Source: Bacteroidetes bacterium GWF2_33_38
Lineage (GTDB): Bacteria; Bacteroidota; Bacteroidia; Bacteroidales; GWF2-33-38
Assembly (NCBI GenBank): GCA_001769505.1
Contig: MEOF01000009.1
Span: forward strand, 1 to 37,395
DNA length: 37,395 nucleotides
Reading direction: 5' to 3'
Shown here: positions 9,552 through 36,073 of the stretch, in pieces
Numbering within the stretch: position 1 is the first letter of the stretch
Layout of the letters: each line of letters starts with the position of its first letter
Translations under genes and position numbers: made by a program
Notes under the pieces: model-generated
Told to the model about the DNA's origin: nothing
The model's database searches: none
What the model saw: only the letters and a program-made list of their open reading frames with translations

Positions 9552-9627
9552 TATTTTTTAATTTAAATTTATTGTGTAAAATTTGTCATATTTTTCGATA
9601 TTTCAAAGAATTAATAATTTAATATTT

Positions 9628-11094
9628 ATGCGGTATTTTTTAACAAGCATTTTTCTCATTTTCACCATAGTTCTTTCCTTTTCGCAAGTAAAACCAACCG
9701 AATTACCTTTTGCAAAAGTTTTCGAAGATTTTGTAAAGCACGAAGATTTTAAAAACGCATCAATCGGTTTAATTGCAATGGACTTTGAAAATGGCGAAAT
9801 TCTTGGAAATTACAATTCTCATTTAAGCTTAACTCCTGCATCTATTCTCAAAATAGTTACAACAGCAACAGCTCTGGAAATATTGGGGGCGAAAACACAA
9901 TTTAAAACATCGCTTTATTACAAGGGAGAAATTGACTCAAACAAAGTGCTTCACGGCGATTTAATAATTATTGGAGGAGGCGACCCTGCACTTGGCTCCG
10001 AAATATTTGATAAAATATACAACAAGCCTTACTTTTTTAGCACTTGGGCAGACTCTATAAAAAAACTCGGCATTGATTCTATTGATGGATTTATTATTGG
10101 AGACGACAGTTATTTCAATAACATTGACGTTCCTTCAACATGGATTTGGGGTGATATGGGAAATTATTATGGTGCTTTTGCTTCGGGTTTAAGCATTTTT
10201 GAAAATACTTACAAAATTAAATTTGAGCCGGAAGATTCGACTGGAGCTAACGCTAAAATATCGGAAATCGTACCCAAGATAAATTCCTTAATTATTGAAA
10301 ACGAAGTAACTATTTCTGATACAAACAAAGACCTAGCGTATATTTATGGAGCACCTTACCAAAACGAAAGAAAGATCGAAGGCACTATTCCAAAACACAA
10401 AAACGAATTTATTGTTAAAGGCTCAATTCCTAATCCTGCAGAAGTAGCCCTTAATGAAATTAAAAGCGAATTAAACAAAATAAACGTAATTTGTAATAAG
10501 GGAACCAAAATCGAAAAAATAATTACTGACTCATTGCTTCATTTTATAACCGAAATAAAATCGCCAACAGTAGAAGAAATTGTTAAAATAACAAATCTAA
10601 GAAGTCATAATTTATTTGCTGAACATCTTGCTTTGCAAGTTGGAAAAGCAAGAAACAAAAACCTAAATTACAATATTGCTGTAAACACCATAGTTGAATT
10701 TTGGAAAAGCAAAAATATCGAAACATCTGGCATGTCGTTGTACGATGGCAGCGGTCTTTCTCGATACAACATCATCACCCCAAAACAAATGGCTGACGTA
10801 CTTTTTTATATGAAAAATAGCAAAAATTACTCATCTTTTTATAGTTCATTGCCAACAGCTGGTGAATCAGGAACCCTTTCGGGCATGTGTAAAAATAGTA
10901 TAGCAAAAGGACGAGTTAATGCTAAAAGCGGATATATTACTAGAGTAAGAAATTATGCTGGTTACATGACTAGCATCTCGGGGAAAAAAATAATTTTTGT
11001 TGTAATGCTCAATAATTTCAATTGTTCGGCTGCCGATTCAAAAAATCATGTCGAAAAATTATTCGACAAAATGGTTACAGTTCCAATTCATTAA
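9628..11094 (+). CDS. dacB: D-alanyl-D-alanine carboxypeptidase/endopeptidase, PBP4 family (S13)
   Basis: 488 residues. An open frame extends upstream to a TTG at 9583, but ATG 9628 gives a proper signal peptide (MRYFLTSIFLIFTIVLSFSQ) and is preferred. All three penicillin-binding motifs are present: SILK (catalytic Ser72, Lys75), SHN (326-328) and KSG (433-435). The large insert between the first and second motifs is the hallmark of the S13 family, and the length fits (E. coli PBP4 is 477 residues). The enzyme trims D-Ala from peptidoglycan stems and/or cuts 4-3 cross-links in the periplasm. It stands alone, with a hairpin terminator about 35 nt downstream. Confidence 0.93.
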   Translation: MRYFLTSIFLIFTIVLSFSQVKPTELPFAKVFEDFVKHEDFKNASIGLIAMDFENGEILGNYNSHLSLTPASILKIVTTATALEILGAKTQFKTSLYYKGEIDSNKVLHGDLIIIGGGDPALGSEIFDKIYNKPYFFSTWADSIKKLGIDSIDGFIIGDDSYFNNIDVPSTWIWGDMGNYYGAFASGLSIFENTYKIKFEPEDSTGANAKISEIVPKINSLIIENEVTISDTNKDLAYIYGAPYQNERKIEGTIPKHKNEFIVKGSIPNPAEVALNEIKSELNKINVICNKGTKIEKIITDSLLHFITEIKSPTVEEIVKITNLRSHNLFAEHLALQVGKARNKNLNYNIAVNTIVEFWKSKNIETSGMSLYDGSGLSRYNIITPKQMADVLFYMKNSKNYSSFYSSLPTAGESGTLSGMCKNSIAKGRVNAKSGYITRVRNYAGYMTSISGKKIIFVVMLNNFNCSAADSKNHVEKLFDKMVTVPIH

Positions 11095-11338: not shown

Positions 11339-11704
11339 TTACTCTTTATGATGTTCTTCTTTGTGTTCTCCATCTTCGTGGTTACAAGCCTTTTTAATCT
11401 CTGTACCTTCTACACTTAGTTCTGTTTTGTAACCAATAGTTTCAATAGCTTTATTTAAACTTTCTTTGCTTTGTTTATTTACATCAAATTTAATAGTAAC
11501 TACTTTAGTTTCAAGGTCTGCAATGACTTCTTTAACACCATCAACTTTAAGCATTTCTTTTTCAATTAATGCTTTCCCGTTTGCACAATGAAAAAAAGTT
11601 TTGATAGCCACTTTGTCTAATTTTACTGCATCTTGTGCAAAAGAACTTGATAAAAATAATAATACAAAGCTCAAGGCTAAAGTTAAAGATTTGAATGTTT
11701 TCAT
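11339..11704 (-). CDS. Exported heavy-metal-associated (HMA) domain protein with His-rich tail
   Basis: 121 residues with signal peptide MKTFKSLTLALSFVLLFLSSSFAQ. The mature part is one HMA (ferredoxin-like) domain: VAIKTFFHCANGKALIEKEM, then the conserved VDGVKEVIADLETKVVTIKFDV and a closing IETIGYKTE. The usual metal-binding CxxC is reduced to a single Cys (HCANG). The C-terminus is rich in His and Glu (CNHEDGEHKEEHHKE) with a second Cys and may provide an alternative metal site. A periplasmic metal-binding or metal-sensing role is likely; Cu, Zn or Hg cannot be distinguished. A near-ideal promoter lies upstream, and the gene precedes no transporter within the window. Confidence 0.85.
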   Translation of the reverse strand: MKTFKSLTLALSFVLLFLSSSFAQDAVKLDKVAIKTFFHCANGKALIEKEMLKVDGVKEVIADLETKVVTIKFDVNKQSKESLNKAIETIGYKTELSVEGTEIKKACNHEDGEHKEEHHKE

Positions 11705-12566: not shown

Positions 12567-14951
12567 ATGAAATTATTAAATTTATTCTTATTTGTGTGTG
12601 TATTTTCGACTTACATTGCTGCTCAAAATACATCCCTTGATATAAAAGACAAATATCTTCAAGCTGAAACATATATGGACGATGGAGACTTTAGTGCTGC
12701 ACTCGAAATATATAAAGAACTTGTGAACACAGACCCTGAAAATGCAAATTTTAATTTCAAACTTGGTTTTTGTTACTTAAACATCGTTCTTGAAAAAGAA
12801 AAAGCGTTGGAATACTTAAAAAAAGCGATAACAAGCACATCTGTTGATTACGACCCCATTTCCACTAAAGAACGCAATGCTCCTATTGATGCATTTTTCT
12901 ATTTAGGAAAAGCGTATCACGTAAACGAAATGTTTAAAGAAGCCATTGATGCGTTAAATGAATTTAGAGGTGAAATTCTTAAAAATAATCCAGATTTACT
13001 AGAAGAAGTAGATAGAACAATAAATTATTCAATGAATGGAATGGAATTGGTTAAATATCCAGTTAATTTTACAATTACAAATCTTGGAGCAAGTATAAAT
13101 TCTGAATATAGCGAACATAGTCCTGTGTTTTCTGCCGATGAATCTGTTTTAATTTATACATCTAAAAGAGCAGGTGGAGTTGGCGAATTAAAAACCGACG
13201 ACGGACAATTTTACGAAGATATTTATCTTTCTACCAAAGATGAAAGTGATATTTGGTCGAAACCAAAATCAATAGGAACAAATATTAACACCGAAGGACA
13301 CGAAGCAACGATTGGACTTTCTGTTGACGGACAAGAACTTTTCATATATAAAGATGATAATGGCGACGGAAATATATATCGAAGTTTATTGAATGGAGAA
13401 GAATGGTCAGCCCCTGAAAAATTAGGAGCTAACGTAAATTCAAAAAATCGCGAAACTCACGCTTCTATATCTGCTGATGGAGGATATTTGTATTTTACGA
13501 GCGACAGACCTGGTGGATATGGCGGATTAGACATATATGTTAGCAAAAGACTACCAAATGGAGATTGGGGAAATCCTCAAAATTTAGGTCAAAAAATTAA
13601 TACAAAATATAATGAAGAAGGTCCTTTTATTCATCCTGACGGAGTAACATTATTTTTTAGTTCCGAAGCACACAACAGTATGGGGGGCTATGATATATTT
13701 TATGCAACAATCGACAATGAAACTAGAACTTGCTCTGAACCTACAAACATTGGATATCCAATTAACTCAACTGATAACGATGTATTTTATATGCCAACTC
13801 CTGATGGAAAAAGAGCATATTACGCTTCACATAAAGCCGATGGACTTGGAAATCCTGATATTTATCTAATTACGTTGGCTGACAGTAAAGAAAAACCTCT
13901 TACGGTTATGACAGGAGTAGTTACATTAAGCAACGGTGCACCAATTACCGATATTTCAATTACCGTTACCGATTTAAAGAAACAAGAAGTTGTTGGTATT
14001 TATACACCGAACAGCAAAACAGGAAAATATCTTTTCATATTAACTCCTGGGATATATAATATCTTGTTTGAATCAGCATCTAATGATTTATACCATTCTG
14101 AAAATATTACTGTAGACGAGGGTTCTTCGTACAAACAAATTAACAAACCGATAGAACTTAAACCAATTTTAATTGGAAATACTAACGAAAAATATTTTGC
14201 CGAATTTCTCAAAAAAGAAAGCGAAGTAGATGACGTTGTAAAAGAAAAACTTAATATTGTTGCTGATATGCTTAACTCAAGCAAGCACCTAATCGTTGAC
14301 ATTGAAACATTAAGCGAATTCAAAAAAGATGCAGTTTTAGCTAAAAAAAGAGAACAAGCCGTTAGTAACTACCTTGTTAGCAAAGGTATTGATTTGTATA
14401 GAATAATGACAGGCTTACCAATTGCTCCGGATCAAGACAATGTTATTGAAATTGCTATTGGAGAACGACAAGAACTTGTTGCTGCTAATAATCAGCAGAC
14501 AAATCAAAGCAATAATCAAGACAATGTAGGAGCAAAAACTACTGCACCAACAAATCCTAATGATGTTACCATTTCAAATATTTTCTTCGATTTCGACAAA
14601 GATCACACATCAGAATACTATAATAACATGGATAAATTAGCTAGTTATTTAGTAACAAATACTGAATCTAAAGTCGAAATTCATGGCTATACCGACGCAC
14701 AAGGTGATGAGGAATATAACAATCAATTATCGATTCGTCGTGCTAAGTTTGCCAAGGATTATTTGGTTGAAAAAGGTTGCAATAAATCCAATATTAGCAT
14801 CAAAGGATTTGGCGAAAGCAAACAGATTTCAAACGACTCATGCCCCGATTCAAGAAAATATAATCGTAGAGTAGAGTTTATAATCATTAAACAAGGACAA
14901 TACAAATTAACAGTTGAACCTGTCAACGTACCTGATAAATATAAGCTATAA
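12567..14951 (+). CDS. PorE-like envelope protein 1: TPR, PD40 propeller, CRD and two OmpA-like domains
   Basis: 794 residues from ATG 12567 (an upstream in-frame TTG at 12546 would spoil the signal peptide MKLLNLFLFVCVFSTYIAAQ). Domains: TPR-like helices about 20-135 (FSAALEIYKELVNTDPENANF); PD40 propeller about 175-440, with repeats such as YLYFTSDRPGGYGGLDIY and TLFFSSEAHNSMGGYDIFYA; a carboxypeptidase-regulatory-like domain about 448-535; a degenerate OmpA-like domain about 540-634; a Gln/Asn linker; and a canonical OmpA domain about 668-775. The last has GYTDAQGDEEYNNQLSIRRA and NRRVEF, which supply the Asp and Arg that bind diaminopimelate. The order TPR-PD40-CRD-OmpA is that of PorE of the type 9 secretion system, but there is no lipobox. 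It heads a cluster of paralogues. Confidence 0.9.
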   Translation: MKLLNLFLFVCVFSTYIAAQNTSLDIKDKYLQAETYMDDGDFSAALEIYKELVNTDPENANFNFKLGFCYLNIVLEKEKALEYLKKAITSTSVDYDPISTKERNAPIDAFFYLGKAYHVNEMFKEAIDALNEFRGEILKNNPDLLEEVDRTINYSMNGMELVKYPVNFTITNLGASINSEYSEHSPVFSADESVLIYTSKRAGGVGELKTDDGQFYEDIYLSTKDESDIWSKPKSIGTNINTEGHEATIGLSVDGQELFIYKDDNGDGNIYRSLLNGEEWSAPEKLGANVNSKNRETHASISADGGYLYFTSDRPGGYGGLDIYVSKRLPNGDWGNPQNLGQKINTKYNEEGPFIHPDGVTLFFSSEAHNSMGGYDIFYATIDNETRTCSEPTNIGYPINSTDNDVFYMPTPDGKRAYYASHKADGLGNPDIYLITLADSKEKPLTVMTGVVTLSNGAPITDISITVTDLKKQEVVGIYTPNSKTGKYLFILTPGIYNILFESASNDLYHSENITVDEGSSYKQINKPIELKPILIGNTNEKYFAEFLKKESEVDDVVKEKLNIVADMLNSSKHLIVDIETLSEFKKDAVLAKKREQAVSNYLVSKGIDLYRIMTGLPIAPDQDNVIEIAIGERQELVAANNQQTNQSNNQDNVGAKTTAPTNPNDVTISNIFFDFDKDHTSEYYNNMDKLASYLVTNTESKVEIHGYTDAQGDEEYNNQLSIRRAKFAKDYLVEKGCNKSNISIKGFGESKQISNDSCPDSRKYNRRVEFIIIKQGQYKLTVEPVNVPDKYKL

Positions 14952-14954
14952 TTA

Positions 14955-15506
14955 ATGAAAATATTTATCATATATATTTCTCTATTTTTGATTTCTTGTG
15001 AAGCAATGTTCTCGCAAGAAGTAACTTATCATTTACTTTTATTAAATCAAAAAAGCAAATCGGGATATTTCGATAAATATAACAACGGTTCCCAAAATGT
15101 AAGATCTTATCGAACAAAAGATGGCTATGTGTTTGTTGCAGGAAGTTTTAAAACAATGCAAGAAGCAGAAGCTCAACTCGAAAAAATCGGAGAATTAGGG
15201 TTAAAAGAAATTCGAGTGATTGATAGCAAAGAACTTATTAAGTTGCTAGGGGGCGATTCTTCGCAAGACATAATATTTACAATACATTTAGGAACTTTCA
15301 GCACAAAACAAAATATTAATTCTTTCGAGAATATTCAGCAAAATGATATTCTCGAGCAACAAGATGAAAACGGAAATTTCATATATATTTACAAGCGTTT
15401 CTACAACTATTTGATAGCTAAAGAAGAATGGTTAAGAGTATTAAAATCAGGCTATGATAACGCTTTTGTTATGAACATTAATAGATACAATTTTAAAAAT
15501 GATTAA
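14955..15506 (+). CDS. Free-standing double-SPOR-like exported protein
   Basis: 183 residues. After an N-terminal signal (MKIFIIYISLFLISCEAMFSQ), two SPOR-like repeats fill the protein. Repeat one is about 24-95 (VTYHLLLLNQ, then DGYVFVAGSFKTMQEAEAQL and LKEIRVIDSKEL). Repeat two is about 103-178 (IIFTIHLGTFSTKQ, then YIYKRFYNYLIAKEEW and YDNAFVMNINRY). They closely resemble the repeats at the C-termini of the two following PorE-like proteins. The signal offers two readings: LISC followed by Glu fits a lipobox (lipoprotein), while MFSQ fits signal peptidase I. It starts 3 nt after the previous stop and overlaps the next gene by 8 nt, so it is translationally linked to both. It probably binds peptidoglycan or a cluster partner. 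Confidence 0.82.
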   Translation: MKIFIIYISLFLISCEAMFSQEVTYHLLLLNQKSKSGYFDKYNNGSQNVRSYRTKDGYVFVAGSFKTMQEAEAQLEKIGELGLKEIRVIDSKELIKLLGGDSSQDIIFTIHLGTFSTKQNINSFENIQQNDILEQQDENGNFIYIYKRFYNYLIAKEEWLRVLKSGYDNAFVMNINRYNFKND

Positions 15507-18500
15507 AAGATATATATTCGGGATACTTATTATTTTAGCTTTCGGGCAGGTTTATTCACAGAAAATCATAAAGAGCAAATTCATTGATGCAGAATATTAT
15601 TTTCTATTTGATGAATATTCAAAAGCTCTTCCTCTATATTTATCATTGATTGATAAAGACCCTAGCAATGCAAATATAAATTATAGAATATCCTTATGTT
15701 ATATGAATATGGTTGGACAAAAATACAAAGCCATTCCATATTTAGAAAATGCGGTTAAAAATGTTTCAGAAACTTATAACGAAGGTTCATACAAAGAACT
15801 ACAAGCTCCTTTCGAAGCATACTTGTACTTGGGCGACGCCTACCGAATTAACGAAGATTTAGATAAAGCAATTGAAGCATATAGCACTTTCAAAAGCTTA
15901 TTAAATCCTCGTGAAATATACTTCTTAGATATTGTTGAACGACAAATTGAATCTTGCCAATACGCAAAAGAATTGTTTTTTGAACCCGTGATGGTGGAAG
16001 AAATTCCAATGGGAGATATTATAAATACTCCATTTTATGAATACAATCCAGTTTTGAATGCTAAAGGTGATATGATTATTTTTCAACAATCGAAATCAAA
16101 AGAATCAATATTTATTTCCAAATTCGTAGATGGAGTTTGGGAAAAACCAAAAAATATAACGAGTGCAGTAAAATCTGATGGTTTTTGTAAAGTAGTTTCT
16201 ATTTCGCCAGATGAAAAAAGTATTTTTTTAACCGATGATAATTTGGATAACGAAGGAGATTTATACGTTTCTCAATTGAAAAAAAGCAAACCATATCCAA
16301 TGGAAAAACTCAATCGAAAAATTAATTCGAAATATAGCGAAACACATGCTTGTTTGTCGCCCGATGGAAAAACACTTTATTTTACAAGCGATAGAAAAGG
16401 TGGATTTGGAGGCTTAGATATTTATAAATCAAACCTTAATGATAAAGGAGATTGGGAAGAACCTATAAATCTTGGATCAACTGTAAACTCAAAATATAGC
16501 GAAGATACGCCTTTTATGCTTGAAGACGGAAAAACGATGTATTTCAGTTCAGAAGGACACAATAGCATGGGTGGATTCGATTTCTTTGTTACAACTTTAC
16601 TTGATGACCAAACATGGTCGGTTCCTATGAATCTAGGATATCCTATAAATACAACCGATGACGATTTATTTTATTCCCCTGCTCGAAATGGAGAGTTCGC
16701 ATATTGTGCTAGAATTAAAAACTTTGGAGATGCTCAAAGTGACATTTATAAGATTACACCTAGTCAGACGAATATTCCTAAAGAGTTTACTCTTAGCGGA
16801 AATGTTATGTTTGCTGACGGAAGAATTGACAACATGTCAAAAGTTAACATCTCGGTTTCTAATTCTAGTAATCAAGAAAAACTAGCAACAATTAAACCCG
16901 ACTCTCTTGGAGATTTCTCACAAGTTTTACCAGTTGTTGACTGTAAAATAATAGCAGAAGTAGAAGGATATAACAAAGTAATTGAAAATATTGTAATCCC
17001 AAGAGTAATTACAAAATTAGAATTTAAGTACAACTTAGAATTTACTCCTATACTGTTAGCCACAACAGAAGTTGTAAGTAAAAAAGATTCGATTACTATT
17101 CAAAATTCTGATACAGCAATCGTTGCCTCAAACAAAACCATCGAAGCAAATATTGATACAACAAGTCAAATAATTGCTGAAAATTATACAGATTCAATAC
17201 ATCAAGAAACAACCAACTTGATTGCCGAAAATACTGAACAAATTGTAACTGAGAATAATAATGCTACAACTGTAAATGGTCAAAACAATCAGCTTGTTTC
17301 AGAAAAAAAAGATAGCTTAATTGCTGAAAATACAGTAAACAATCAACATAATGTTACAAATACAGAAACCAATAATAACAATGTTGTTGCAACAAATAAC
17401 ACCGAAAATTCAGCACAAATAAAAACAACAGAAAATACAAATAATTCCCAATCTAATAATACACAAAACATTGTAGCCAATAATAATGCAAATACGAATC
17501 AAGTTGCTACAAATAATAGTAATTCAGTCGCAAATAAAGATATTTATGTTGCCAAAAGCATATTCTTCGACTTTGCTAGTTATAGCTTAAACAATAATTC
17601 AAAAACCGACATTGAAAGATTGTACAATACATTGAAAGCTAATCCTGAATTAACTGTTGAAATTAGCGGACATACTGATTCAAAAGGAAATCCAGAGTAT
17701 AATAGAATATTGTCTGAGCAAAGAGCAAAAGCGGTTCTTACGTATCTTTCATCAAAGGGAATTGCTAAGGGTAGAATTATAATCAAAGCTTTGGGCGAAG
17801 AGCAACACATTGCAATTAATGAAAATCCTGATGGATCCGATAATCCTAACGGACGTCAATTAAACAGAAGAGTTGATGTAAACCTTATTGGTTCTCCGAA
17901 TCAAAATATCGTAGTCGAAAATGTAGCAGTTCCTGATAATTTAAAATTTAGTCAAGATACTAAATTTTATATATTACTTGGAGAAGTTAAAGAAAAATAC
18001 AATAATGATTATTTTTCAAAATATAATATCAACGAACTTAAAAATGCAAAAACCTATACCACAAGTAATGGATTTGCATATATAGCTGGAGAATTTTCAA
18101 AAAAACCAGATGCATTAAAACTACTTAACAACTCTATAGATGCAGGGTTCGAAGAAGCCAAGATTATAAATAGTTTTGAATTAAACACTTTAATAGCAGA
18201 TGCGAAAACAAAAGCTCCTGAACAAAATACTCTCGCTAATTTTGAAAGTAAAAGTGTTAATAGCTATACAGTTCAAATTTCTGCAATTCGAAGCAAAGCC
18301 GACCACAATAAATTTGCTGGAATTACTGAACTTCAAGAAGTTTACTGCAACGATGGTTATTACAGATACGTTGTTGGAGAGTATAGCGATTACATTACAG
18401 CTCGAAGCAAACGTAACGAACTTGCACAAATGGGCTATCCAGATGCATTCGTGATAAAAACGGCCTTACTGTCAAGTAAAGTTGAAAATAAAACAAACGC

Positions 18501-19050
18501 AAGCATCGAAAGTAAAAAAGATTCTGCACCAAACACAAATTCATCAAGTGGAGATATTTTCACGATACAAATTAAAGCGATGAATACCCCTATAGGTGTT
18601 GATAATTTTAGTAATTTAGAAAATGTTGTTGAACGCAAATGCAGTAATGGAAGTGTAAAATATACAGTCGGAGAATATCCGAATATACAAGTAGCTACAT
18701 TCGATTTAGATAAAATTAAACAAGCAGGATACCACGATGCATTTATTGTAAATGTTAATACATTCAATCAAGTTAATAATACAACTTCGGCTCCATCATC
18801 AGAAAATAAAAATGCAATTAATAGTAACAAATATACCGTTCAAATCAAGGCTTCGAAAGAACGAATAAAAATAAAAGAATTTGATAAATATAAAAATGAA
18901 GTCATTGAATTTATTGGTCAAGATGGCTATTACAGGTATGCTGTTGGAGAATATTCCTTGTATTCAGAAGCAAAAGAAGCATGGATGAACATATTAATTG
19001 ATTACGAAGATGCATTTATCACAAAAATTGATTCGTATCAGAATAAATAG
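15499..19050 (+). CDS. PorE-like envelope protein 2: TPR, PD40, CRD, OmpA and four SPOR-like repeats
   Basis: 1183 residues, signal peptide MIKRYIFGILIILAFGQVYSQ. Domains: TPR-like helices about 22-150; PD40 propeller about 175-422 (TLYFTSDRKGGFGGLDIYKS, TMYFSSEGHNSMGGFDFF); carboxypeptidase-regulatory-like domain about 427-520; an Asn/Thr/Gln-rich linker about 523-680; an OmpA domain about 680-800 with GHTDSKGNPEY, SEQRAKAVLTYL and NRRVDV intact, so peptidoglycan binding is expected; then four SPOR-like repeats at about 815-898, 921-992, 1018-1090 and 1110-1183. The last three share YTVQI(S/K)A and a Y(R/K)Y.VGEY core and end in DAF(V/I). The protein could grip peptidoglycan both by stem peptides (OmpA) and by glycan (SPOR). 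It overlaps the SPOR-pair gene by 8 nt. Confidence 0.9.
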   Translation: MIKRYIFGILIILAFGQVYSQKIIKSKFIDAEYYFLFDEYSKALPLYLSLIDKDPSNANINYRISLCYMNMVGQKYKAIPYLENAVKNVSETYNEGSYKELQAPFEAYLYLGDAYRINEDLDKAIEAYSTFKSLLNPREIYFLDIVERQIESCQYAKELFFEPVMVEEIPMGDIINTPFYEYNPVLNAKGDMIIFQQSKSKESIFISKFVDGVWEKPKNITSAVKSDGFCKVVSISPDEKSIFLTDDNLDNEGDLYVSQLKKSKPYPMEKLNRKINSKYSETHACLSPDGKTLYFTSDRKGGFGGLDIYKSNLNDKGDWEEPINLGSTVNSKYSEDTPFMLEDGKTMYFSSEGHNSMGGFDFFVTTLLDDQTWSVPMNLGYPINTTDDDLFYSPARNGEFAYCARIKNFGDAQSDIYKITPSQTNIPKEFTLSGNVMFADGRIDNMSKVNISVSNSSNQEKLATIKPDSLGDFSQVLPVVDCKIIAEVEGYNKVIENIVIPRVITKLEFKYNLEFTPILLATTEVVSKKDSITIQNSDTAIVASNKTIEANIDTTSQIIAENYTDSIHQETTNLIAENTEQIVTENNNATTVNGQNNQLVSEKKDSLIAENTVNNQHNVTNTETNNNNVVATNNTENSAQIKTTENTNNSQSNNTQNIVANNNANTNQVATNNSNSVANKDIYVAKSIFFDFASYSLNNNSKTDIERLYNTLKANPELTVEISGHTDSKGNPEYNRILSEQRAKAVLTYLSSKGIAKGRIIIKALGEEQHIAINENPDGSDNPNGRQLNRRVDVNLIGSPNQNIVVENVAVPDNLKFSQDTKFYILLGEVKEKYNNDYFSKYNINELKNAKTYTTSNGFAYIAGEFSKKPDALKLLNNSIDAGFEEAKIINSFELNTLIADAKTKAPEQNTLANFESKSVNSYTVQISAIRSKADHNKFAGITELQEVYCNDGYYRYVVGEYSDYITARSKRNELAQMGYPDAFVIKTALLSSKVENKTNASIESKKDSAPNTNSSSGDIFTIQIKAMNTPIGVDNFSNLENVVERKCSNGSVKYTVGEYPNIQVATFDLDKIKQAGYHDAFIVNVNTFNQVNNTTSAPSSENKNAINSNKYTVQIKASKERIKIKEFDKYKNEVIEFIGQDGYYRYAVGEYSLYSEAKEAWMNILIDYEDAFITKIDSYQNK

Positions 19051-19111
19051 TATTTTGGTCAAAATGTAACCTTATTTGCCCAAATACAGTATAATTAATC
19101 AAAATCAGTTA

Positions 19112-19141
19112 TTTGAACTATTTAGATTTTTTATATTTTTG
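19112..19141 (+). promoter_or_regulatory. Promoter for the third PorE-like gene
   Basis: TTTG (19112-19115), 18-nt spacer, TATTTTTG (19134-19141), a perfect -7 box, 27 nt before ATG 19169. It lies in the 118-nt gap after the second paralogue, so the third gene can be transcribed separately. Confidence 0.55.
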
Positions 19142-19168
19142 ATTATTATTAATTTAAACTTATTTATA

Positions 19169-21766
19169 ATGTCATCATTTAGAATCATTATAATGTACTT
19201 CTTGTTCTCTGTTGCCTTTATAAATATTTCTTCTGCACAGCAACAGTCATTATCTGAGACCGAAGAATTCAAAAAAAAATATATAACTGCGTCATATTAC
19301 TATCTCTACGAAGAATATGAGAATGCGATTCCCCTATTACTTGAATTATACGACATGGCTCCTACCAATGCTGCTGTTAACTATAAACTTGGGGTGAGTT
19401 ATCTGCAAATAAAAGGAGAAAAAGAAAAAGCACTTCCATTTTTAGAATTTGCGGCTAAACATTCATCTCCCAAAGCAAATGAATTTTCATATAAAGAAAC
19501 CTTAGCTCCTGAGTTAGCATGGTATCGTTTAGGTGAAGTTTTTCATGTAATTAACGATTTTGATAAAGCAACAGAATCATACAAGCGTTTTAAATCATTT
19601 TTAAAACCTAATGACATTTACAATCTAGATATCGTTAACCGTCAAATCGAAACATGTAAAAATGCAAAACAACTTGTAAAATATCCAGTAATGGTTGTCA
19701 AAAATAATTTAGGAAGATTAGTTCGAACACCATTTTATGCTTACAGTCCTGTTGTTTCAGCCGACCAATCCACCTTAGTTTTTACGACAGAAAAACTTGT
19801 AATTCCTGATTCTTCAGAACTTGCAAGCGGAGCTTTCGACGAATATATTGAAGAAATTTTTTATTCAAAAAAAGTTAATGGCGAATGGACCGAAGCGGTT
19901 AATATTACAAATGAAATTAATTCTAATGGATATTGTTCTTCTGTATTCATTTCATCAGATGGCACACACCTTTTACTAATGAAAGATGATTATTTTGATG
20001 GAAATATTTACGAGACCAAATATATTGACGGAAAATGGACTCCAATCACAAAACTGCATAAAAACGTGAACTCAAAATCATGGGAAATGCATGCTTGCCT
20101 GACAAAAGACGGAAAAACATTGTATTTCTCAAGCGATAGAAAAGGCGGTTTTGGAGGCTTCGACATCTACAAATCAAATTTGCAAGAAAACGGAGAATGG
20201 GGAAAAGCCATAAACTTGGGTCCTACCATTAATACTAAATACGACGACGATACTCCATTCATTTTAGAGGATAATCGTACTCTATATTTTAGCTCCGAGG
20301 GACATTATAATATGGGAGGTTTTGATATTTTCCACACTAAGCTATTGGATAATAATAAGTGGTCTGTGCCTTTAAACTTAGGTTATCCCGTTAATACGGC
20401 AGATGATAATTTATTTTATTATCCTGTTAAAAACGGAGAATACACTTATTTTTCAGATGCAAAAATTGATGGAAACGGAGGAACCGAAATATACATGATG
20501 AAACTCTTACTTCCTGAACACCCAAACCAATTTGAGATAAACGGAACAATCACATTTGCGGATAATCCAAAATCAAATTCCGTTGTTACGATAAGTATAA
20601 TTGACTCATTGTCGAAAAACGATACTGTTGCTACAGTATTTTCAAACCTCGAAACAGGAGAATACCAAGGCATAGTTCCATCTGGAAATTATAAAGTTGC
20701 ATTCGTAGCTGAAGGCTACAAAAAACGTTGCGAAGAGTTATTTATTCCACAAATCCTCTCACGACAAGAATTTGTTTTAAATACAGAACTCAGTCCCGAA
20801 GAACTCCTATCTTCACATGATTTGATTGCTCAAAATCAAGAAAGTAAAGACGGTTATGTTGCTATAAAGAATATTAATTTCAGCACAAAAGAACAGACAT
20901 TGGATTTTGATTCTCAAGTAGAATTGGAACGAATGTATAAAATTTTAGCATCAAACCCTAGTTTATCAATTGTATTAGAAGGAAAAACTAAAACAGAATT
21001 TGGCGAAGCATACGATCAAAAACTTAACGAAAAACGCCAAGAAACCATTATAAATTATTTAGCCAAAAAAGGAATTGATAAGAGCCGTTTTGTAATTAAT
21101 AATCAGGAAATTGCACAAAACAATGCCCTAAGTGAAGCCGTTGAAATAAAATTATTAAAATCAACTAACGACTCAATTTTGATGAACGAAGAAATATATT
21201 TACCTGAAAATGTTCGATTCAAAAATGAATTGGTGTACACTGTAATTCTACTAGGAACAAACGGACAGTTAGCCGATAACTATTTTGAAAAATATAAAGA
21301 TATTTTAACCGTTACTCCTTACACAACTCAAAATGGATATATTTATACAAGCGGCAAATTTGACAAATTATTTGATGCTGTTAAATACATGAACTCAGCC
21401 ATCGACATGGGATTTCTCGAAGCAAGCATAGTCGATAATTTTGAACTTGAAAACATACGCAGAAGTTCTTACTTAGCCACAAGTGAAAGCACCACTCATA
21501 ATACTAAGGTTGATACAACGTCTTCAACTATAGTTTCAAAGGGCGAATTTTTGTTTGTCATTCAAATTGGTGCTTATGAAAATTCTGTTGGAATTGAACA
21601 CTTCAAAAATCTTGAAGGTATAGTCGAACATAAAGGAAGCGACGGAAAATATCGTTACTTATTCGGAAAATTTGCAACGTACAAAGAAGCAAAGGAAAAG
21701 AGAATGGATTTAATTCGTAATGGGTATTCTGATTCATTTATCATGAACTATGAAAGATACAAATAA
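19169..21766 (+). CDS. PorE-like envelope protein 3: TPR, PD40, CRD, degenerate OmpA domain and two SPOR-like repeats
   Basis: 865 residues from ATG 19169. The open frame extends to a TTG at 19076, but 19169 gives a normal signal peptide (SSFRIIIMYFLFSVAFINISSAQ) and follows a promoter. ATG 19193 is a possible later start. Domains: TPR-like helices about 30-165; PD40 propeller about 188-449 (TLYFSSDRKGGFGGFDIYKS, TLYFSSEGHYNMGGFDIF); carboxypeptidase-regulatory-like domain about 451-545; OmpA-like domain about 564-670; SPOR-like repeats about 687-770 and 792-865. In the OmpA-like domain the GHTD motif has become GKTK and the NRRVE motif is SEAVE. The key Asp is therefore lost and peptidoglycan stem binding is doubtful, although NEKRQETIINYL keeps the Arg helix. 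It overlaps the following acetyltransferase gene by 17 nt. Confidence 0.88.
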   Translation: MSSFRIIIMYFLFSVAFINISSAQQQSLSETEEFKKKYITASYYYLYEEYENAIPLLLELYDMAPTNAAVNYKLGVSYLQIKGEKEKALPFLEFAAKHSSPKANEFSYKETLAPELAWYRLGEVFHVINDFDKATESYKRFKSFLKPNDIYNLDIVNRQIETCKNAKQLVKYPVMVVKNNLGRLVRTPFYAYSPVVSADQSTLVFTTEKLVIPDSSELASGAFDEYIEEIFYSKKVNGEWTEAVNITNEINSNGYCSSVFISSDGTHLLLMKDDYFDGNIYETKYIDGKWTPITKLHKNVNSKSWEMHACLTKDGKTLYFSSDRKGGFGGFDIYKSNLQENGEWGKAINLGPTINTKYDDDTPFILEDNRTLYFSSEGHYNMGGFDIFHTKLLDNNKWSVPLNLGYPVNTADDNLFYYPVKNGEYTYFSDAKIDGNGGTEIYMMKLLLPEHPNQFEINGTITFADNPKSNSVVTISIIDSLSKNDTVATVFSNLETGEYQGIVPSGNYKVAFVAEGYKKRCEELFIPQILSRQEFVLNTELSPEELLSSHDLIAQNQESKDGYVAIKNINFSTKEQTLDFDSQVELERMYKILASNPSLSIVLEGKTKTEFGEAYDQKLNEKRQETIINYLAKKGIDKSRFVINNQEIAQNNALSEAVEIKLLKSTNDSILMNEEIYLPENVRFKNELVYTVILLGTNGQLADNYFEKYKDILTVTPYTTQNGYIYTSGKFDKLFDAVKYMNSAIDMGFLEASIVDNFELENIRRSSYLATSESTTHNTKVDTTSSTIVSKGEFLFVIQIGAYENSVGIEHFKNLEGIVEHKGSDGKYRYLFGKFATYKEAKEKRMDLIRNGYSDSFIMNYERYK

Positions 21767-22289
21767 TATACTTGAAGGAACTAAAGTAACTCTGCGTGCT
21801 TTAGAGCCTTCAGATATTAACTATCTGTACGAATGGGAAAATGACTCGGATTCTTGGTTTGTTAGCAATACCCTTACGCCCTATTCAAAATATATTCTTC
21901 AAAAATATATCGAAAATTCGCATTTAGATATTTATCAAACTAGGCAACTCAGATTAATGATTATTTGTAAAGAAACAAATTTACCTATCGGAACTATTGA
22001 CTTGTTCGATTTTGACCCTTTTCATAATCGAGCTGGAGTTGGAATTTTAATAGCCAAAAAAGAGATGCAACAAAAGGGATTTGCAAGCGAAGCAATGGAA
22101 ATTTTGATAAATTATTCATTTAATCATTTGAATCTCCATCAGTTGTATTGTAATATTACAACAAATAATACAAAAAGCATTAGCCTTTTTAAAAAGTATA
22201 ATTTTAAAATATCTGGCGAAAAAAAACAGTGGCTAAAATATGGAGAAACTTGGGTTGATGAATATTTTCTACAGCTAATTCACGCTTAA
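21750..22289 (+). CDS. GNAT-family N-acetyltransferase (RimJ/RimL/SpeG type)
   Basis: 179 residues, cytoplasmic. It begins EGTKVTLRALEPSDINYLYEWENDSD, the usual start of RimJ/RimL-type acetyltransferases. The acetyl-CoA binding region is AGVGILIAKKEMQQKGFASEAMEILINYSF, with a Q-x-x-G-[FY]-A/G pyrophosphate-binding loop. It ends with the expected LHQLYCNITTNNTKSISLFKKYNF and a KYGETWVDEYFL segment. Its ATG lies inside the last codons of the third PorE-like gene (17-nt overlap), so the two are almost certainly co-translated. The acceptor could be a ribosomal protein N-terminus, a polyamine or another amine; sequence alone does not decide. Confidence 0.9.
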   Translation: MKDTNNILEGTKVTLRALEPSDINYLYEWENDSDSWFVSNTLTPYSKYILQKYIENSHLDIYQTRQLRLMIICKETNLPIGTIDLFDFDPFHNRAGVGILIAKKEMQQKGFASEAMEILINYSFNHLNLHQLYCNITTNNTKSISLFKKYNFKISGEKKQWLKYGETWVDEYFLQLIHA

Positions 22290-30645: not shown

Positions 30646-32763
30646 ATGCAAAAATATTATATTTTAATTTTAACAGTTATTTTTACTCAGCACGTTTTTT
30701 CTCAAATTCAATATGAGGGGAAACCATATAGTTTTGATTATAAGTCAGATTTATCAACGATTCAGTCGATTGAAATGCCCGAAATAGATGTGCAAAAATT
30801 ACTCGAAGAAGACAAGGAAATTTCACCCATTCGATTTGCAAAAGATTTTGTCGTAAATTATAATTTGAATAATTCGGGAACTTGGGATAAACTTGGCAAT
30901 GGAGATAGGATTTGGCGATTAAAAATTAAATCGAATAATGCTTTAACCTTAAATTTTATTTTCAATAGGTTTTTACTACCAAAACACACAAAACTGTATA
31001 TCTATAACGAAAATAAATCAGAAATTTTAGGTGCATTTACAAACGAAAATTGTATCCCGTCAGCTAAATTTGCAACATCTATTATCAACGGGGACGTCGC
31101 AATCATAGAGTACAATATTCCACATAATGTAACTGAAACTGGAGAAGTCGAATTATTGAAAATTAATCATGGCTATAAAGAGGTTTTTTTCGATTTAAAA
31201 GACGACAGATTTGGTCTTTCGGGAGATTGCAATGTTGATGTAAATTGCGCCGAAGGCTACAATTGGAAAAAGGAAAAGCACGCCGTTTGCAGAATTATCA
31301 TGGGAGGAACTCAACTTTGTACCGGAGCATTAATTAACAATGTGAATAACGATGGAACACCATATTTTCTTACTGCAAATCATTGTACAACAGCTCCGTA
31401 CGACGAATGGGTGTTTTATTTTAATTACGAAAGTCCAACTTGTGGCGGAGAAGATGGCTCAACTGGACAAACAATTTCAGCATGCGAACTTCGAGCAACT
31501 TCAGGAAATCTTGATTTCTGCCTAGTTGAAATGAGCTCTGCTCCTCCAAAAGCCTATCATCCCTACTATGTTGGGTGGAACCACACTATAATTCCCGCTC
31601 AAAATACAACTGGAATCCACCACCCAATGGGCGATGTAAAAAAAATATCAATCGATAACGATTCTCCAATAATTGCCGATTATGGAAATGGCTACGACAC
31701 CGAAAGTCATTGGAAAATTGGAGAATGGAATGTCGGTACAACCGAAGGTGGCTCATCAGGTTCGCCATTGTTTGACGAAAATCATCGACTTATCGGCGAC
31801 TTAACTGGAGGTGAAGCTGCATGTGGAAATTCAGTAAACGATTATTACACTCGTTTCGACTTATCGTGGGATACATACAGCGAAAGTAGTCAACAATTAA
31901 AATATTGGCTTGACCCACAAAATATTGGAGTTGATACAATTGACGGCTACGACCCCTATATGTCAGTTTACTCTTTCGAATGCGACACAAGTAGCAATAC
32001 AAATGATGGCGAAAATATCAAAGCTTATGATTTTAATACAGTTTGGGGATATTGGTCGGGACATAATGAATATGGGTTTTCGAAATTTGCAGATGCTTAC
32101 GAAACAACTAATACTCAATATGTACAAGGTATTCGGCTACCAATACTTCGAGCATACAGTGGTAATACAGATTCGCATATAACCGTGAAAATTTGGGACG
32201 ATAACGGAGGTATTCCTGGAAATGAACTTGCATCAAAAAATGTGTTAATTTCTGAATTTAGTGAAGGCATGTGGAAATATATTGAATTTAATTCATACGT
32301 CGAAGTACAAGGAAAATATTATGTCGGTTACGAAATTTATTACAATACTCCGGTGGATACATTTGTTGTTCACATGGTAGAAGACAGAGGTGAATCAGGA
32401 ATAAATACAGCATTAACATATTACAATAATCAATGGCGATTTTATAATGACATTTCGAGCCTTCATACATCTTTGGCTATCGAAGTTTTAATCTGCACTA
32501 TAACTGGAGAAGAAGATATTTTAGAAACTTCAACATCAGAAGTAAATATTTATCCAAATCCTATGCAATCAAAATTTTATATTAAAACCAATTTTGAAAA
32601 ATTTGACGTAATTATTTATGATATTTTCGGGAGAGTTGTAAAACATGAAAACAATTATCGGAACATTGGTATTGACTGTTCAAACCTTTCAAACGGCATA
32701 TATTTGGTTGAGATAAACGACAAAAAAAATCGTATTATTGAAAAAATATTTATAACTCATTAA
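30646..32763 (+). CDS. T9SS-exported lysyl-endopeptidase-like serine protease (S1)
   Basis: 705 residues. Signal peptide (MQKYYILILTVIFTQHVFSQ), a prodomain to about 190 (WRLKIKSNNALTLNFIFNRFLLP), then a trypsin-fold protease about 205-440. The triad is His246 (LTANHC), Asp290 (NLDFCLVEM) and Ser371 (GSSGSP). Many Cys, including the DCNVDVNC motif, suggest disulfides, and the layout resembles Achromobacter lysyl endopeptidase. Specificity for Lys is not proven. A beta-sandwich module (about 455-620, VKIWDDNGGIPGNELASK, YYVGYEIYY) follows. It ends in a T9SS type A sorting domain (NIYPNPMQSKFYIKT, LSNGIYLVEI). It should be secreted or bound to the cell surface. The neighbour downstream has the same plan. 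Confidence 0.9.
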   Translation: MQKYYILILTVIFTQHVFSQIQYEGKPYSFDYKSDLSTIQSIEMPEIDVQKLLEEDKEISPIRFAKDFVVNYNLNNSGTWDKLGNGDRIWRLKIKSNNALTLNFIFNRFLLPKHTKLYIYNENKSEILGAFTNENCIPSAKFATSIINGDVAIIEYNIPHNVTETGEVELLKINHGYKEVFFDLKDDRFGLSGDCNVDVNCAEGYNWKKEKHAVCRIIMGGTQLCTGALINNVNNDGTPYFLTANHCTTAPYDEWVFYFNYESPTCGGEDGSTGQTISACELRATSGNLDFCLVEMSSAPPKAYHPYYVGWNHTIIPAQNTTGIHHPMGDVKKISIDNDSPIIADYGNGYDTESHWKIGEWNVGTTEGGSSGSPLFDENHRLIGDLTGGEAACGNSVNDYYTRFDLSWDTYSESSQQLKYWLDPQNIGVDTIDGYDPYMSVYSFECDTSSNTNDGENIKAYDFNTVWGYWSGHNEYGFSKFADAYETTNTQYVQGIRLPILRAYSGNTDSHITVKIWDDNGGIPGNELASKNVLISEFSEGMWKYIEFNSYVEVQGKYYVGYEIYYNTPVDTFVVHMVEDRGESGINTALTYYNNQWRFYNDISSLHTSLAIEVLICTITGEEDILETSTSEVNIYPNPMQSKFYIKTNFEKFDVIIYDIFGRVVKHENNYRNIGIDCSNLSNGIYLVEINDKKNRIIEKIFITH

Positions 32764-32824
32764 TTTAGAATTGTAGAATTACAATAGTTTGATTAATTTT
32801 ATTTCCAAAATAAAAAATAAACCC

Positions 32825-35800
32825 ATGAGAAGAATTTACACTTTTATAATCACATTGTTGTTTGTTAATTCTTTTGCTTATTCTCAGATTAGCGAAGGAG
32901 GTACGCCAATTAGTTTTATGAACAAGCAAGTAAACTCCGACATTGAAACTAATTTTGTTGAACCCTTAACCAAACAACAAATTGAAAACACCATTGCCGA
33001 ATCTAATGAAAAAGGAACAATGTACATTATTGGAAAGTCTATCCCTACCGATTTTTCAATCGAAAGTTCAGGTGATTGGACAATTTTAGAAGACGGAGGG
33101 AAACTTTGGCGTTTAAAGATTGAATCTTCAGGAGCCGAAGCATTGAGTATTCACTACGATAATTTCAACTTGCCGGTTGGCTCAAAATTATTTCTTTACA
33201 ACGAAAGCAAAACTCAAGTTATTGGAGCATTTACAGCTTACAATAATTCAGAAAATCAATATTTTGCTACAGAATTAATTGGAGGAGACGTTACCGTTTT
33301 GGAATATTATCAACCTGCATTTGTTACAGAAGAACCACAAATCCACATTCATGAAATTGCATATGTTTTTAGAGATTCTCATATAAAGAGTATTAAAACT
33401 AAGAATTTCGGAGATTCAGGCGACTGCGAAATTAATGTAAATTGCTCTGAAGGAGATAATTGGAAAAAAGAAAAAACCGGAGTTGTTCGTATTTTAGTTA
33501 CAGCTGACGGAGGACAAGGTTGGTGTACTGGGTCTTTAATAGCAAATGTAAAATACGATTGTACCCCTTATATTTTGACTGCAGATCATTGTAGCGACAA
33601 CGAAACTACAGATGATTTAACGCAATGGATTTTTTATTTTAATTACGAAGCAGTAGGTTGTTCTAATCCAACTTCAGAAACAGGGCTTAATTCTCAAACT
33701 ATGACCGGTTGCATGAAAGTAGCAAATATTGGAAACAATTCGGTTGAACAATCCGACTTTTTTCTTACATTATTGCAACAAGATGTTCCAGAAGATTATA
33801 ATGCATATTTTAACGGTTGGAACAGACAAAATTCTCCTGCGGTAAGTGGTGTTGGAATTCATCATCCATCGGGTGATATTAAAAAGATCTCTACTTATAC
33901 AACTGCTCCAACAACCAGCGATTACAACGGAACAGGATTAGAATCTCATTGGAGAATCAATTGGGCTGTTACCGCAAACGGACAAGGTGTAACAGAGCAG
34001 GGTTCATCAGGTTCTCCGTTATTTGACCAAAATCATAGAATCATAGGCGATTTATCAGGAGGTTTATCCGATTGTGCGAATCTAAATGAAGCCGATTTGT
34101 ATGGAAAAATATCATACTCTTGGGAAACAGCTGGCTCCACTTCAACTACACGTTTAAAAAATTGGCTCGACCCAAATAATACTGGAGTACTTACACTCGA
34201 TGGAAGCTATTGTTTACATGCATTTTTTTCAGAATCGGAAACTTCAGTAATTGTTGGTAGATCTGTTGACTTTACCGATGCATCAATAGGAAGTCCAGAT
34301 TCTTGGGCATGGACTTTTGAAGGAGGAACTCCCGCCACATCAACCTCACAAAATCCAACAAATATTGTGTATAATAGTTTAGGAACATTTGATGTCCGAT
34401 TAATTGTTACTAAAGGTAGCAAAAAAGATACTCTCTTAAAATCTGATTTAATCGTTGTTTCTCCTCCCGAACTACATGCTTATTTCAGAGCCGATAGAGA
34501 TACTGTTTTCTTAAATCAATTTGTAAATTTTATTGACACATCTTATACTGATACGACCATTACTTCATGGAATTGGACATTTGAAGCTGGCGACACAACA
34601 GCATCATCTTTACAAAATCCTGCTATATCTTGGGACACTTTAGGACGATTTGACGTAAAATTAATTGTTACCGATCCATTTACAGCCGATACGTTAACTA
34701 AATACTCATATATTACTGTAATTGAAGATAGTGGGGCTGTACCTAACGCTAATTTCGCAGCAAATTACACCGTGATATTTGAAGGAGATGTCGTTAATTT
34801 TACAGGAATTTCGTGGAATACAAACGATTGGGAATGGACTTTTGACGGAGGCGTACCATCGTACTCATTTGAACAAAATCCACTGTCCATTAGATATGAT
34901 TCTGCAGGAACCTATCGGGTTATGCTTCGAGCTCTTAATCCATGGGGTGTTGATTCAGTCATTAAGGAAACGTATATTTTAGTTTTAGACCACGAGTCTC
35001 TTGTTCCACCAATTGCTGACTTTTCCGTTTCAAGACATTTAATAAAAGTTGGAGAGTCGGTTAATTATACTGATTTATCAACTGGAGGATACCCTACTAG
35101 TTGGGAATGGACTCTCGAGGGCGGAACACCATCAACTTCAATCGAACAACATCCACTAAATGTGATATACGACATACCTGGGGCACATAGTGTAACCCTT
35201 ACTGTTGCTGATAGTGCAGGATTTGATACTAAATCAATAGATGAATATATTTTTGTTACAAGTACTCCAATTATAAACATTTGTGATTCAGCAATTTCTA
35301 ATGTTCTTTCTACCGAGATGCTTAAAAATCCTGCCGCAACAAATTCAGGATACATCAGTGGACATAACGGAGATAATATTTCTGTATTTGCCGAATATTT
35401 CGATTATTATATTTACACAAAAGTTAACGGACTTATATTCCCTGTAGCTAAAGCTCATGCAACAACTGATAATTCTAAAGTAACATTTAAGGTATGGTCT
35501 AGAGATAGTTTGGGTTTACCTGGTGCTGAACTTGGGAGTCAAGACATTAAGATAAACACTTTAGTGGAAACATATTTCCAAGTTGTTGAATTTGATGAAC
35601 CAGTTGATGTTTACGGAAGTTTCTTTATTGGTTACGAAATTTCATACGCAAGTGCAGATACTTTTGCAGTCTATCTTGCAGAAGACAGAGGAAATGAAGG
35701 AATCAGTACTTTTTATGTAAAAGATGGCACTACTTGGGAAAACTCTGCTGACTATTATTCGTACAACACATCTTCAGCAATTAGACCAATTACTTGCGTT

Positions 35801-36073
35801 GTTGGAATTGACAATAGAGAAGAAATTAACGATATCTTTGTCTATCCGAATCCTTCTAATAGTTTGGTTAATGTTGATTTTATGGGCATTTCTTCAAAAC
35901 ACAGAGATATTCAAGTTTATGATGTTATGGGACGCCAAATTTCAATTAATGTTGTGAAATTTTCTGACAACAATTATTCTCTAGATTTTTCAAATAAATC
36001 TGTCGGAATATATTTTCTTAAAATATCAGATTCAAAATCTACTATAACAAAAAAATTATCAATCATTAAATAA
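32825..36073 (+). CDS. T9SS-exported lysyl-endopeptidase-like protease with four PKD domains
   Basis: 1082 residues from ATG 32825; the frame is open to a TTG at 32789, but the ATG gives the signal peptide MRRIYTFIITLLFVNSFAYSQ. Prodomain to about 200, then a protease with His255 (LTADHC), Asp311 (SDFFLTLL) and Ser395 (GSSGSP). The His-Asp interval of 56 equals that of Achromobacter lysyl endopeptidase. Four PKD domains follow (about 470-810), each with a W(A/N/E)WT(F/L)E/DGG core, then the same beta-sandwich module as the upstream protease (VWSRDSLGLPGAELGSQ, FFIGYEISYA). A T9SS type A sorting domain (FVYPNPSNSLVNVDF, SVGIYFLKI) ends it. PKD domains probably aid binding of a polymer or matrix. 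No terminator separates it from the upstream gene (61 nt); a strong one follows. Confidence 0.9.
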   Translation: MRRIYTFIITLLFVNSFAYSQISEGGTPISFMNKQVNSDIETNFVEPLTKQQIENTIAESNEKGTMYIIGKSIPTDFSIESSGDWTILEDGGKLWRLKIESSGAEALSIHYDNFNLPVGSKLFLYNESKTQVIGAFTAYNNSENQYFATELIGGDVTVLEYYQPAFVTEEPQIHIHEIAYVFRDSHIKSIKTKNFGDSGDCEINVNCSEGDNWKKEKTGVVRILVTADGGQGWCTGSLIANVKYDCTPYILTADHCSDNETTDDLTQWIFYFNYEAVGCSNPTSETGLNSQTMTGCMKVANIGNNSVEQSDFFLTLLQQDVPEDYNAYFNGWNRQNSPAVSGVGIHHPSGDIKKISTYTTAPTTSDYNGTGLESHWRINWAVTANGQGVTEQGSSGSPLFDQNHRIIGDLSGGLSDCANLNEADLYGKISYSWETAGSTSTTRLKNWLDPNNTGVLTLDGSYCLHAFFSESETSVIVGRSVDFTDASIGSPDSWAWTFEGGTPATSTSQNPTNIVYNSLGTFDVRLIVTKGSKKDTLLKSDLIVVSPPELHAYFRADRDTVFLNQFVNFIDTSYTDTTITSWNWTFEAGDTTASSLQNPAISWDTLGRFDVKLIVTDPFTADTLTKYSYITVIEDSGAVPNANFAANYTVIFEGDVVNFTGISWNTNDWEWTFDGGVPSYSFEQNPLSIRYDSAGTYRVMLRALNPWGVDSVIKETYILVLDHESLVPPIADFSVSRHLIKVGESVNYTDLSTGGYPTSWEWTLEGGTPSTSIEQHPLNVIYDIPGAHSVTLTVADSAGFDTKSIDEYIFVTSTPIINICDSAISNVLSTEMLKNPAATNSGYISGHNGDNISVFAEYFDYYIYTKVNGLIFPVAKAHATTDNSKVTFKVWSRDSLGLPGAELGSQDIKINTLVETYFQVVEFDEPVDVYGSFFIGYEISYASADTFAVYLAEDRGNEGISTFYVKDGTTWENSADYYSYNTSSAIRPITCVVGIDNREEINDIFVYPNPSNSLVNVDFMGISSKHRDIQVYDVMGRQISINVVKFSDNNYSLDFSNKSVGIYFLKISDSKSTITKKLSIIK

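Follow-up and report, generated by a model that had tools for sequence, protein, structure and literature searches.

Bacteroidetes are described as having no tol-pal, and PorE, a protein of the type 9 secretion system (T9SS), has been proposed to tether the outer membrane as a compact, fused Tol-Pal and possibly to traffic to septa, with no targeting signal named in section 10 of that paper (PMC12204202, 2025). The related protein CHU_0125 is needed for outer-membrane integrity (PMC5891637), PorE-like copies were already known to number 2 to 13 per species (PMC5053529), PorE-like genes have been noted beside PorP-like genes (PMC9143113), and SPOR domains bind denuded septal glycan (PMC6895207). 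Here we describe a cluster of five head-to-tail plus-strand genes (P1, P2, P3, P4 and the GNAT N-acetyltransferase P5) at positions 12567-22289 of a 37,395-nucleotide stretch of Bacteroidetes bacterium GWF2_33_38 (contig MEOF01000009.1, the whole stretch being called the window), which bears on the question of how Bacteroidota, which have no recognised Tol-Pal, constrict their outer membrane and hold it. In the explanation that we favour, and to which we give close to an even chance from sequence, predicted folds and analogy, the cluster would encode a periplasmic scaffold tying outer-envelope proteins to peptidoglycan, of a compact fused Tol-Pal-like kind and not PorE, with SPOR domains directing it to septal wall.

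Pfam profiles identified TPR, PD40 and OmpA regions in P1, P3 and P4, and each of these large proteins has an apparent secretion signal, TPR, propeller, CRD and then a predicted wall-binding end, an arrangement seen for P3 also in its model. The TPR-PD40-CRD-OmpA order that an initial annotation of this DNA had read in three large paralogues is thus present, with a weak CRD (visible only in the model for P3, and as CarboxypepD_reg below the Pfam cut-off in P1 and P4), and the likeness of the three is not due to chance, since the alignment of P3 with P4 reached E 4.5e-136 (46%) and that with P1 E 1.5e-104 (35%). P1 (12567..14951) carries a signal peptide (by eye), TPR, a PD40 beta-propeller (four PD40 stretches in Pfam), CRD and two OmpA-like copies, the first degenerate (about 14205-14411) and the second intact (about 14571-14885). 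P2 (14955..15506) looks secreted by eye, has a possible lipobox (LISC) and consists of two SPOR-like folds (about 15018-15251 and about 15267-15488). P3 (15499..19050) combines TPR, a propeller in which we count five blades, CRD, an Asn/Thr-rich disordered linker of ~160 residues between CRD and OmpA (about 17056-17544), an intact OmpA (17554-17883) and four SPOR domains (17962-18174, 18265-18462, 18556-18759 and 18829-19029), while P4 (19169..21766) has TPR, propeller, CRD, a degenerate OmpA (about 20864-21124) and two SPOR domains (21233-21439 and 21554-21754); the starts of P1 and P4 are the ATG codons at 12567 and 19169, the latter taken from the translation. P1 and P2 are separated by 3 bp, P2 and P3 overlap by 8 bp, P3 and P4 lie 118 bp apart and P4 overlaps P5 (21750..22289) by 17 bp, in agreement with the tandem of a free SPOR-pair protein and an overlapping acetyltransferase that had been annotated. 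The stepwise change in the C-terminal ends, also claimed at that time, stood for the SPOR numbers (two, four and two in P2, P3 and P4) and for the degenerate OmpA of P4, with the refinement that one of the two OmpA copies of P1 is degenerate.

These SPOR counts were obtained by iterated profile, for P4 by profile only, and are backed by AlphaFold models for P2 (two SPOR-like folds) and P3 (four, from secondary structure). A single domain passes the Pfam cut-off of 21 (P3 residues 921-987, 33.5 bits), the SPOR matches of P2 (14.3 bits) and P4 (16.5, beside PD40 and a weak OmpA) falling below it. The P2 model (mean pLDDT 82) had its best single-domain matches in VIA-align to the SPOR domains of CwlC (1x60, Z 8.0), RlpA in complex with denuded glycan (6i09, Z 7.6), DamX (second domain, 2lfv, Z 7.0) and DedD (Z 6.0), under a top row, 6ozd, of Z 8.1 and root-mean-square deviation (rmsd) 7.9. 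In whole-model Foldseek searches tandem ACT and RRM pairs outranked SPOR by E-value, with a best E of 2.5e-3, none below 0.001 and low TM-scores; among these structural comparisons SPOR was singled out only by VIA-align and by a single-domain Foldseek match to 1x60 (probability 1.00, E 0.038). The P3 model (mean pLDDT 74) comprises TPR helices (residues 23-161), propeller (166-421), CRD (429-515), OmpA (682-797) behind the disordered linker, and four C-terminal SPOR folds. Its top five Foldseek matches were all TolB (E 2.7e-9 to 3.7e-8, with a TM-score over the target of 0.37-0.41 only), led by 6pnv (E 2.7e-9, TM over target 0.40, rmsd 6.9) and followed by OmpA-like domains and the PorE C-terminal domain 6top, and its OmpA domain superposed on Pal 4g4w with Z 19.3 over 108 residues (rmsd 1.5).

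The OmpA domain of PorE binds diaminopimelic acid (DAP) through Asp576, Asn584 and Arg591 (PMC7192894). By alignment, this D-N-R triad is kept in the P3 OmpA and in the second OmpA of P1 and lost from the first OmpA of P1 (E-gap-R) and from P4 (K-D-R); in both sister genomes the first OmpA of P1 reads D-N-R and P4 reads S-D-K. The triad is kept in 11 P4-type proteins from other families (our reading of alignment A2) and is intact in 32/42 OmpA domains of the related arrays described below. The glycan contact of RlpA is Q270 (PMC6895207), a position that we transferred to the SPOR domains by alignment: a Gln occupies it in the last three of the four P3 domains, in the second of the two P4 domains and in neither P2 domain, which makes RlpA-type binding of glycan by P2 improbable. 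The same polarity recurs in array proteins with at least two SPOR domains, where the Gln is found in 1/17 first and 15/17 last domains, and in proteins of the named loci (2/25 first domains, with three gaps, and 23/25 last domains). Since the triad and the Gln pattern differ among members, the predicted wall contacts differ as well.

The three large proteins are not true PorE, an identity that we rejected on scores, tree placement and the presence of separate PorE genes. Against the NCBIfam PorE model (NF052230, cut-off 600) P1, P3 and P4 scored 273.8, 184.5 and 187.0 bits, and against CHU_0125 (NF053607, cut-off 620) 273.2, 200.3 and 207.0 bits, so that CHU_0125 is the top NCBIfam hit for P3 and P4 and equals PorE for P1. 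The genome has two true PorE genes at other sites (contigs C51, 700.3 bits, and C21, 600.7 bits), among some 20 PD40 relatives. In a quick 72-row tree of the TPR-propeller region, rooted on these two PorE, the sole ones included, the pair was split from the other 70 rows with an SH-aLRT (approximate likelihood-ratio test) support of 99; P1 fell in one array clade and P3 and P4 in another. By these measures the cluster is not a PorE cluster, contrary to the membership first assigned to it. P3, P4, their orthologues in the family and members of families f34 and f48 formed a 9-row set (support 95), which makes P3 and P4 look like a fairly recent duplication and P1 an older lineage. The duplication that had been suggested, with divergence of the wall-binding end, is supported for P3 and P4, whose ligand residues diverge; P1 sits in a separate array clade and is no recent copy. 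In the same genome, a further PD40 protein (G000:C19:69408-72197, locus L009) has a weak SPOR-like stretch near its end and is unlinked to the GNAT; similar matches are present in the sister genomes G001 and G002.

We then used the GNAT alignment A1 as anchor in 168 genomes of the order and found the GNAT in 150 at E 1e-25 or better, as a single match in every genome but one, where two partial matches lay at the ends of contigs. Neighbourhoods were read for 80 of the 150; they come largely from the higher-scoring genomes, usually one from each family, with most lower-scoring genomes left out, a selection that over-estimates array frequency for the order. Directly upstream of the GNAT these 80 had a PD40 protein in 24, a SPOR domain only in 2, a lipoyl acyltransferase (E2) gene in 4 and a glycosyltransferase family 2 (GT2) gene in 3; dapF upstream and mltG downstream flanked it in 20, mltG only in 2, and the rest had another gene (21), a contig edge (2) or a GNAT not recovered by the filter (2). 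Together with ten array loci chosen by resemblance to P3 (the window and nine stretches, from G001, G002, G035, G045, G016, G049, G009, G026 and G044), a PD40 array stands directly 5' of the GNAT in 34 genomes from 23 families, a count that excludes the two SPOR-only loci (L133 and L144) and retains G049 (L083), whose protein is split over several frames. The gap between array and GNAT is at most 40 bp, or an overlap, in 32/34 (with longest-open-reading-frame starts, which make overlaps look larger than they are), each run comprises 1 to 5 PD40 proteins, and SPOR occurs in 21/34 runs and OmpA in 26/34. Another set of 80 named loci, the best matches to the GNAT of the window and biased likewise, had an array in 39 and dapF with mltG in 19.

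The frequent gene order in these loci is lysA, GT2, E2, the PD40 proteins, GNAT, an HSDR_N-like gene, amn, holA and rhomboid (E2, GT2, HSDR_N and the lysA-type decarboxylase verified by Pfam at one locus; amn, holA and rhomboid by eye), and the window itself has other genes in place of both flanks. In isolates of the Marinifilaceae the array is reduced to one protein, which carries four or five SPOR domains, and in Marinifilum flexuosum DSM 21950 and Labilibaculum sp. K2S the order is E2, one PD40 protein ending in four SPOR domains, and GNAT. P1-, P3- and P4-type genes are found in all three genomes of the window's family, and among the neighbourhoods read the P3 form with OmpA plus four SPOR is confined to these three; outside the family the GNAT-adjacent gene ends in OmpA plus SPOR, SPOR alone, OmpA alone or nothing. 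In the sisters G001 and G002, P1-P3 and P4-GNAT lie on separate contigs with different genes adjoining. No free SPOR pair matching comparably to P2 was found in 59 relatives (60 genomes searched, including its own): matches occurred in 9/60 genomes and all lay in frames of 386 to 2206 aa, the exceptions being P2 and a weak match in G031 (frame of 214 aa, E 3.3e-4). In L242 a SPOR pair of 159 aa borders the end of a contig and is possibly a truncated gene. Conservation beyond the strain, on which the initial annotation depended, thus applies to the array-GNAT core and not to the five genes as a set.

Four other loci show further arrangements around the GNAT. A GT2 glycosyltransferase with a C-terminal SPOR domain lies directly upstream of it at L144:10797-13688, which would fit a loss of the array with fusion of its last SPOR to the neighbouring gene, and a short secreted-looking SPOR protein without PD40, possibly left over from an array member, precedes it at L133:4471-5385. 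Downstream of the GNAT, L186:10602-12428 and L238:10936-12939 encode large proteins that have three SPOR domains and, by profile, no PD40.

The GNAT, which matches GNAT families in Pfam, is the constant partner of the array and is itself tied to two cell-wall genes, dapF and mltG, points which, with the separate array clade of P1, the initial annotation had missed. Outside the order, dapF and mltG flank it in 15 of 17 genomes and one of them does so in the other two, and all nine Flavobacteriaceae records among the named loci (9/9, by our reading of titles) have both; in 130/148 genomes of the phylum the GNAT threshold of E 1e-25 was not reached. DapF and MltG were labelled by BLAST to the pair of one locus, which was confirmed by Pfam. 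The dapF-GNAT-mltG trio, often with overlapping genes, was observed in Flavobacteriaceae and in part of Bacteroidales (L147:12780-15223, L243, L225 and L256-L272). Mapped on a 166-row tree of the GNAT, both labels needed fewer changes than shuffled labels did on average (array, 16 against 54.4; dapF/mltG, 5 against 40.3). Two groups have the GNAT between dapF and mltG and a third has it next to predicted wall-binding arrays, a placement that points to wall metabolism. We found no functional paper on this GNAT, nor any link between it and dapF or mltG, in the open-licence literature. Among solved structures, SpeG and diamine acetyltransferases are the closest to it, and Phe147, Trp161 and Gln175 are invariant in 167/167 sequences. 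The catalytic residue of SpeG is a Tyr; where aligned relatives carry Tyr, this GNAT has Phe in 167/167, and it scores 66.6 bits against the SpeG NCBIfam model (cut-off 218). Identity with SpeG was rejected on both grounds.

We read the cluster as a branch of the compact Tol-Pal kind because of the folds of P3, the proposal made for PorE (PMC12204202), the role of CHU_0125 (PMC5891637) and the finding that no protein of this genome passed the curated cut-offs for TolB or Pal, which 2/14 controls passed in each search. From these features we infer a septal location, outer-membrane partners and a role for the GNAT. OmpA domains would hold ordinary wall through stem peptides and SPOR domains would hold the stripped glycan made at division sites, so that P1 would read wall, P3 both wall and stripped wall, and P4 stripped wall, the SPOR domains likely serving as an address label for stripped, division-site wall. 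TPR and propeller would recruit outer-membrane partners, and the P1-P4 set may help to link constriction of the outer membrane, or remodelling of the wall, with the septum. The GNAT, cytoplasmic in this scheme, would probably act on a small amine in wall metabolism, as suggested by its dapF-GNAT-mltG setting. The features of a peptidoglycan-anchored envelope system that were originally proposed are supported. A wider generalization, in which Bacteroidales would lack Tol-Pal and rely instead on SPOR-guided fused TolB-Pal-like tethers that collect on stripped septal wall and pull the outer membrane inward, while a co-encoded acetyltransferase would alter a wall precursor or wall-linked amine for the tethers to read, seems to us quite unlikely.

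Several observations weigh against the scaffold reading. SPOR is missing from 13/34 array runs and OmpA from 8/34, so the proposed targeting is not universal, and the GNAT is present in many genomes without an array, so its link with the array could be positional. The P3 propeller also matches GH43/GH62 propellers in VIA, and it looks five-bladed whereas TolB is described as six-bladed (PMC12204202). No lipobox was found by pattern in P1, P3 or P4, for which outer-membrane anchoring stays a proposal; the pattern is likewise absent from the two PorE of this genome, although PorE of P. gingivalis is an outer-membrane lipoprotein, and the P1 of sister genome G002 reads LLGC, which is lipobox-like. 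Finally, PorE over its curated cut-off is commoner with an array (32/34) than without (22/46), and in array-less genomes PorE lies ~5.4 kb from the GNAT in G137 (L162, C88) and G128 (L171, C1) and SprA ~2 kb upstream of it in G017 (L157, C4).

These last associations would fit an accessory T9SS or gliding scaffold, in which PorE relatives fasten additional machinery for secretion or motility to the wall, as would the domain order shared with PorE, the SprA and PorE genes of this genome and the two neighbouring trypsin-like proteases with T9SS sorting tails (30646-32763 and 32789-36073, one with PKD domains) that the initial annotation had recognised as cargo. However, the proteins score far below the PorE cut-off and are separated from PorE in the tree. 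With a threshold of E 1e-130, PorE is found in 33/34 array genomes and 42/46 others, the matches that pass this threshold below the curated cut-off scoring 476-600 bits, and SprA, present in 78/80 surveyed genomes (34/34 with arrays, 44/46 without), does not discriminate. In the 34 array genomes, all PorE and SprA matches listed are more than 20 kb away from the GNAT. We consider such a role unlikely, and the suggestion first made for it is weakly supported. A surface anchor of the PorP/PorE-like type is highly improbable: a role of this kind was proposed for PorE-like proteins encoded beside PorP-like genes (PMC9143113) and PorP adjoins six other PD40 loci of this genome, but none of its 15 PorP_SprF (PF11751) matches is on C9, the contig of the cluster, and we rejected the anchor for that reason.

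The arrays might also be a neutral expansion, with tandem copies of abundant paralogues piled up at the E2-GNAT junction and the GNAT an unrelated neighbour. The abundance of PD40 members in the genome, the variable size of the arrays and the four genomes in which E2 adjoins the GNAT without an array are in keeping with this, whereas ligand residues are kept in most OmpA and last SPOR domains, different families repeat the same order of two array clades, and close spacing or overlap with the GNAT is recurrent, which leaves neutral expansion rather unlikely. If instead the cluster were a cell-wall sensing module, the array would report the state of the wall and the GNAT would answer on a signal or wall precursor. 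The two wall-gene settings of the GNAT and its invariant residues speak for such a module; no signalling domain and no protein linking periplasm and cytoplasm was matched in the cluster, and we hold sensing to be very unlikely.

Within the window, a plus-strand scan found no terminator-like sites inside the cluster. The Bacteroidota-type promoter pattern had 6 matches (3.7 expected, not significant), one of them at 19112-19141 upstream of P4, and a sigma-70 scan was uninformative (78 matches, 63.9 expected). A few genes upstream of the cluster lies a peptidoglycan enzyme, a peptidase S13 (D-Ala-D-Ala carboxypeptidase 3; 9583-11094), and 11339-11704, divergent from the cluster, encodes a small, apparently secreted protein that has a heavy-metal-associated domain and ends in a His-rich tail.

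Since SPOR is a standard septal-wall targeting module, a SPOR-bearing branch makes the septal PorE/Tol-Pal idea directly testable, and the single-gene versions of Marinifilum flexuosum and Labilibaculum offer tractable systems; the strongly conserved GNAT is moreover linked to cell-wall genes across Bacteroidales and Flavobacteriaceae. Our searches of the open-licence literature, one of which tested little, found no SPOR-bearing, GNAT-linked PorE-like branch.

Compared with known systems, the cluster proteins share with PorE (PG1058) the order of TPR, propeller, CRD and OmpA_C and, in P3 and the second OmpA of P1, the D-N-R pocket for DAP, but they differ from it by extra OmpA or SPOR domains, a GNAT partner, low scores and a place outside PorE in the tree. 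CHU_0125, with its role in outer-membrane integrity, has the same TPR-PD40-OmpA composition, whereas it is described with these three elements only (PMC5891637) and P1, P3 and P4 score far below its cut-off. From DamX, DedD, FtsN and RlpA, whose SPOR fold they share together with the Gln in the last SPOR of most members, they differ in that SPOR is here attached to PorE-like proteins, that the first SPOR mostly lacks the Gln and that P2 lacks both. The GNAT has its closest solved relatives in SpeG-type spermidine/diamine N-acetyltransferases and departs from them in its sub-cut-off score, its Phe for Tyr and its dapF/mltG context. With Tol-Pal, finally, the likeness is one of fold, the P3 propeller resembling TolB and the P3 OmpA resembling Pal, and the TPR of the cluster proteins has a counterpart in CpoB (PMC12204202); the difference is that here these parts are fused in one chain, to which SPOR domains have been added.

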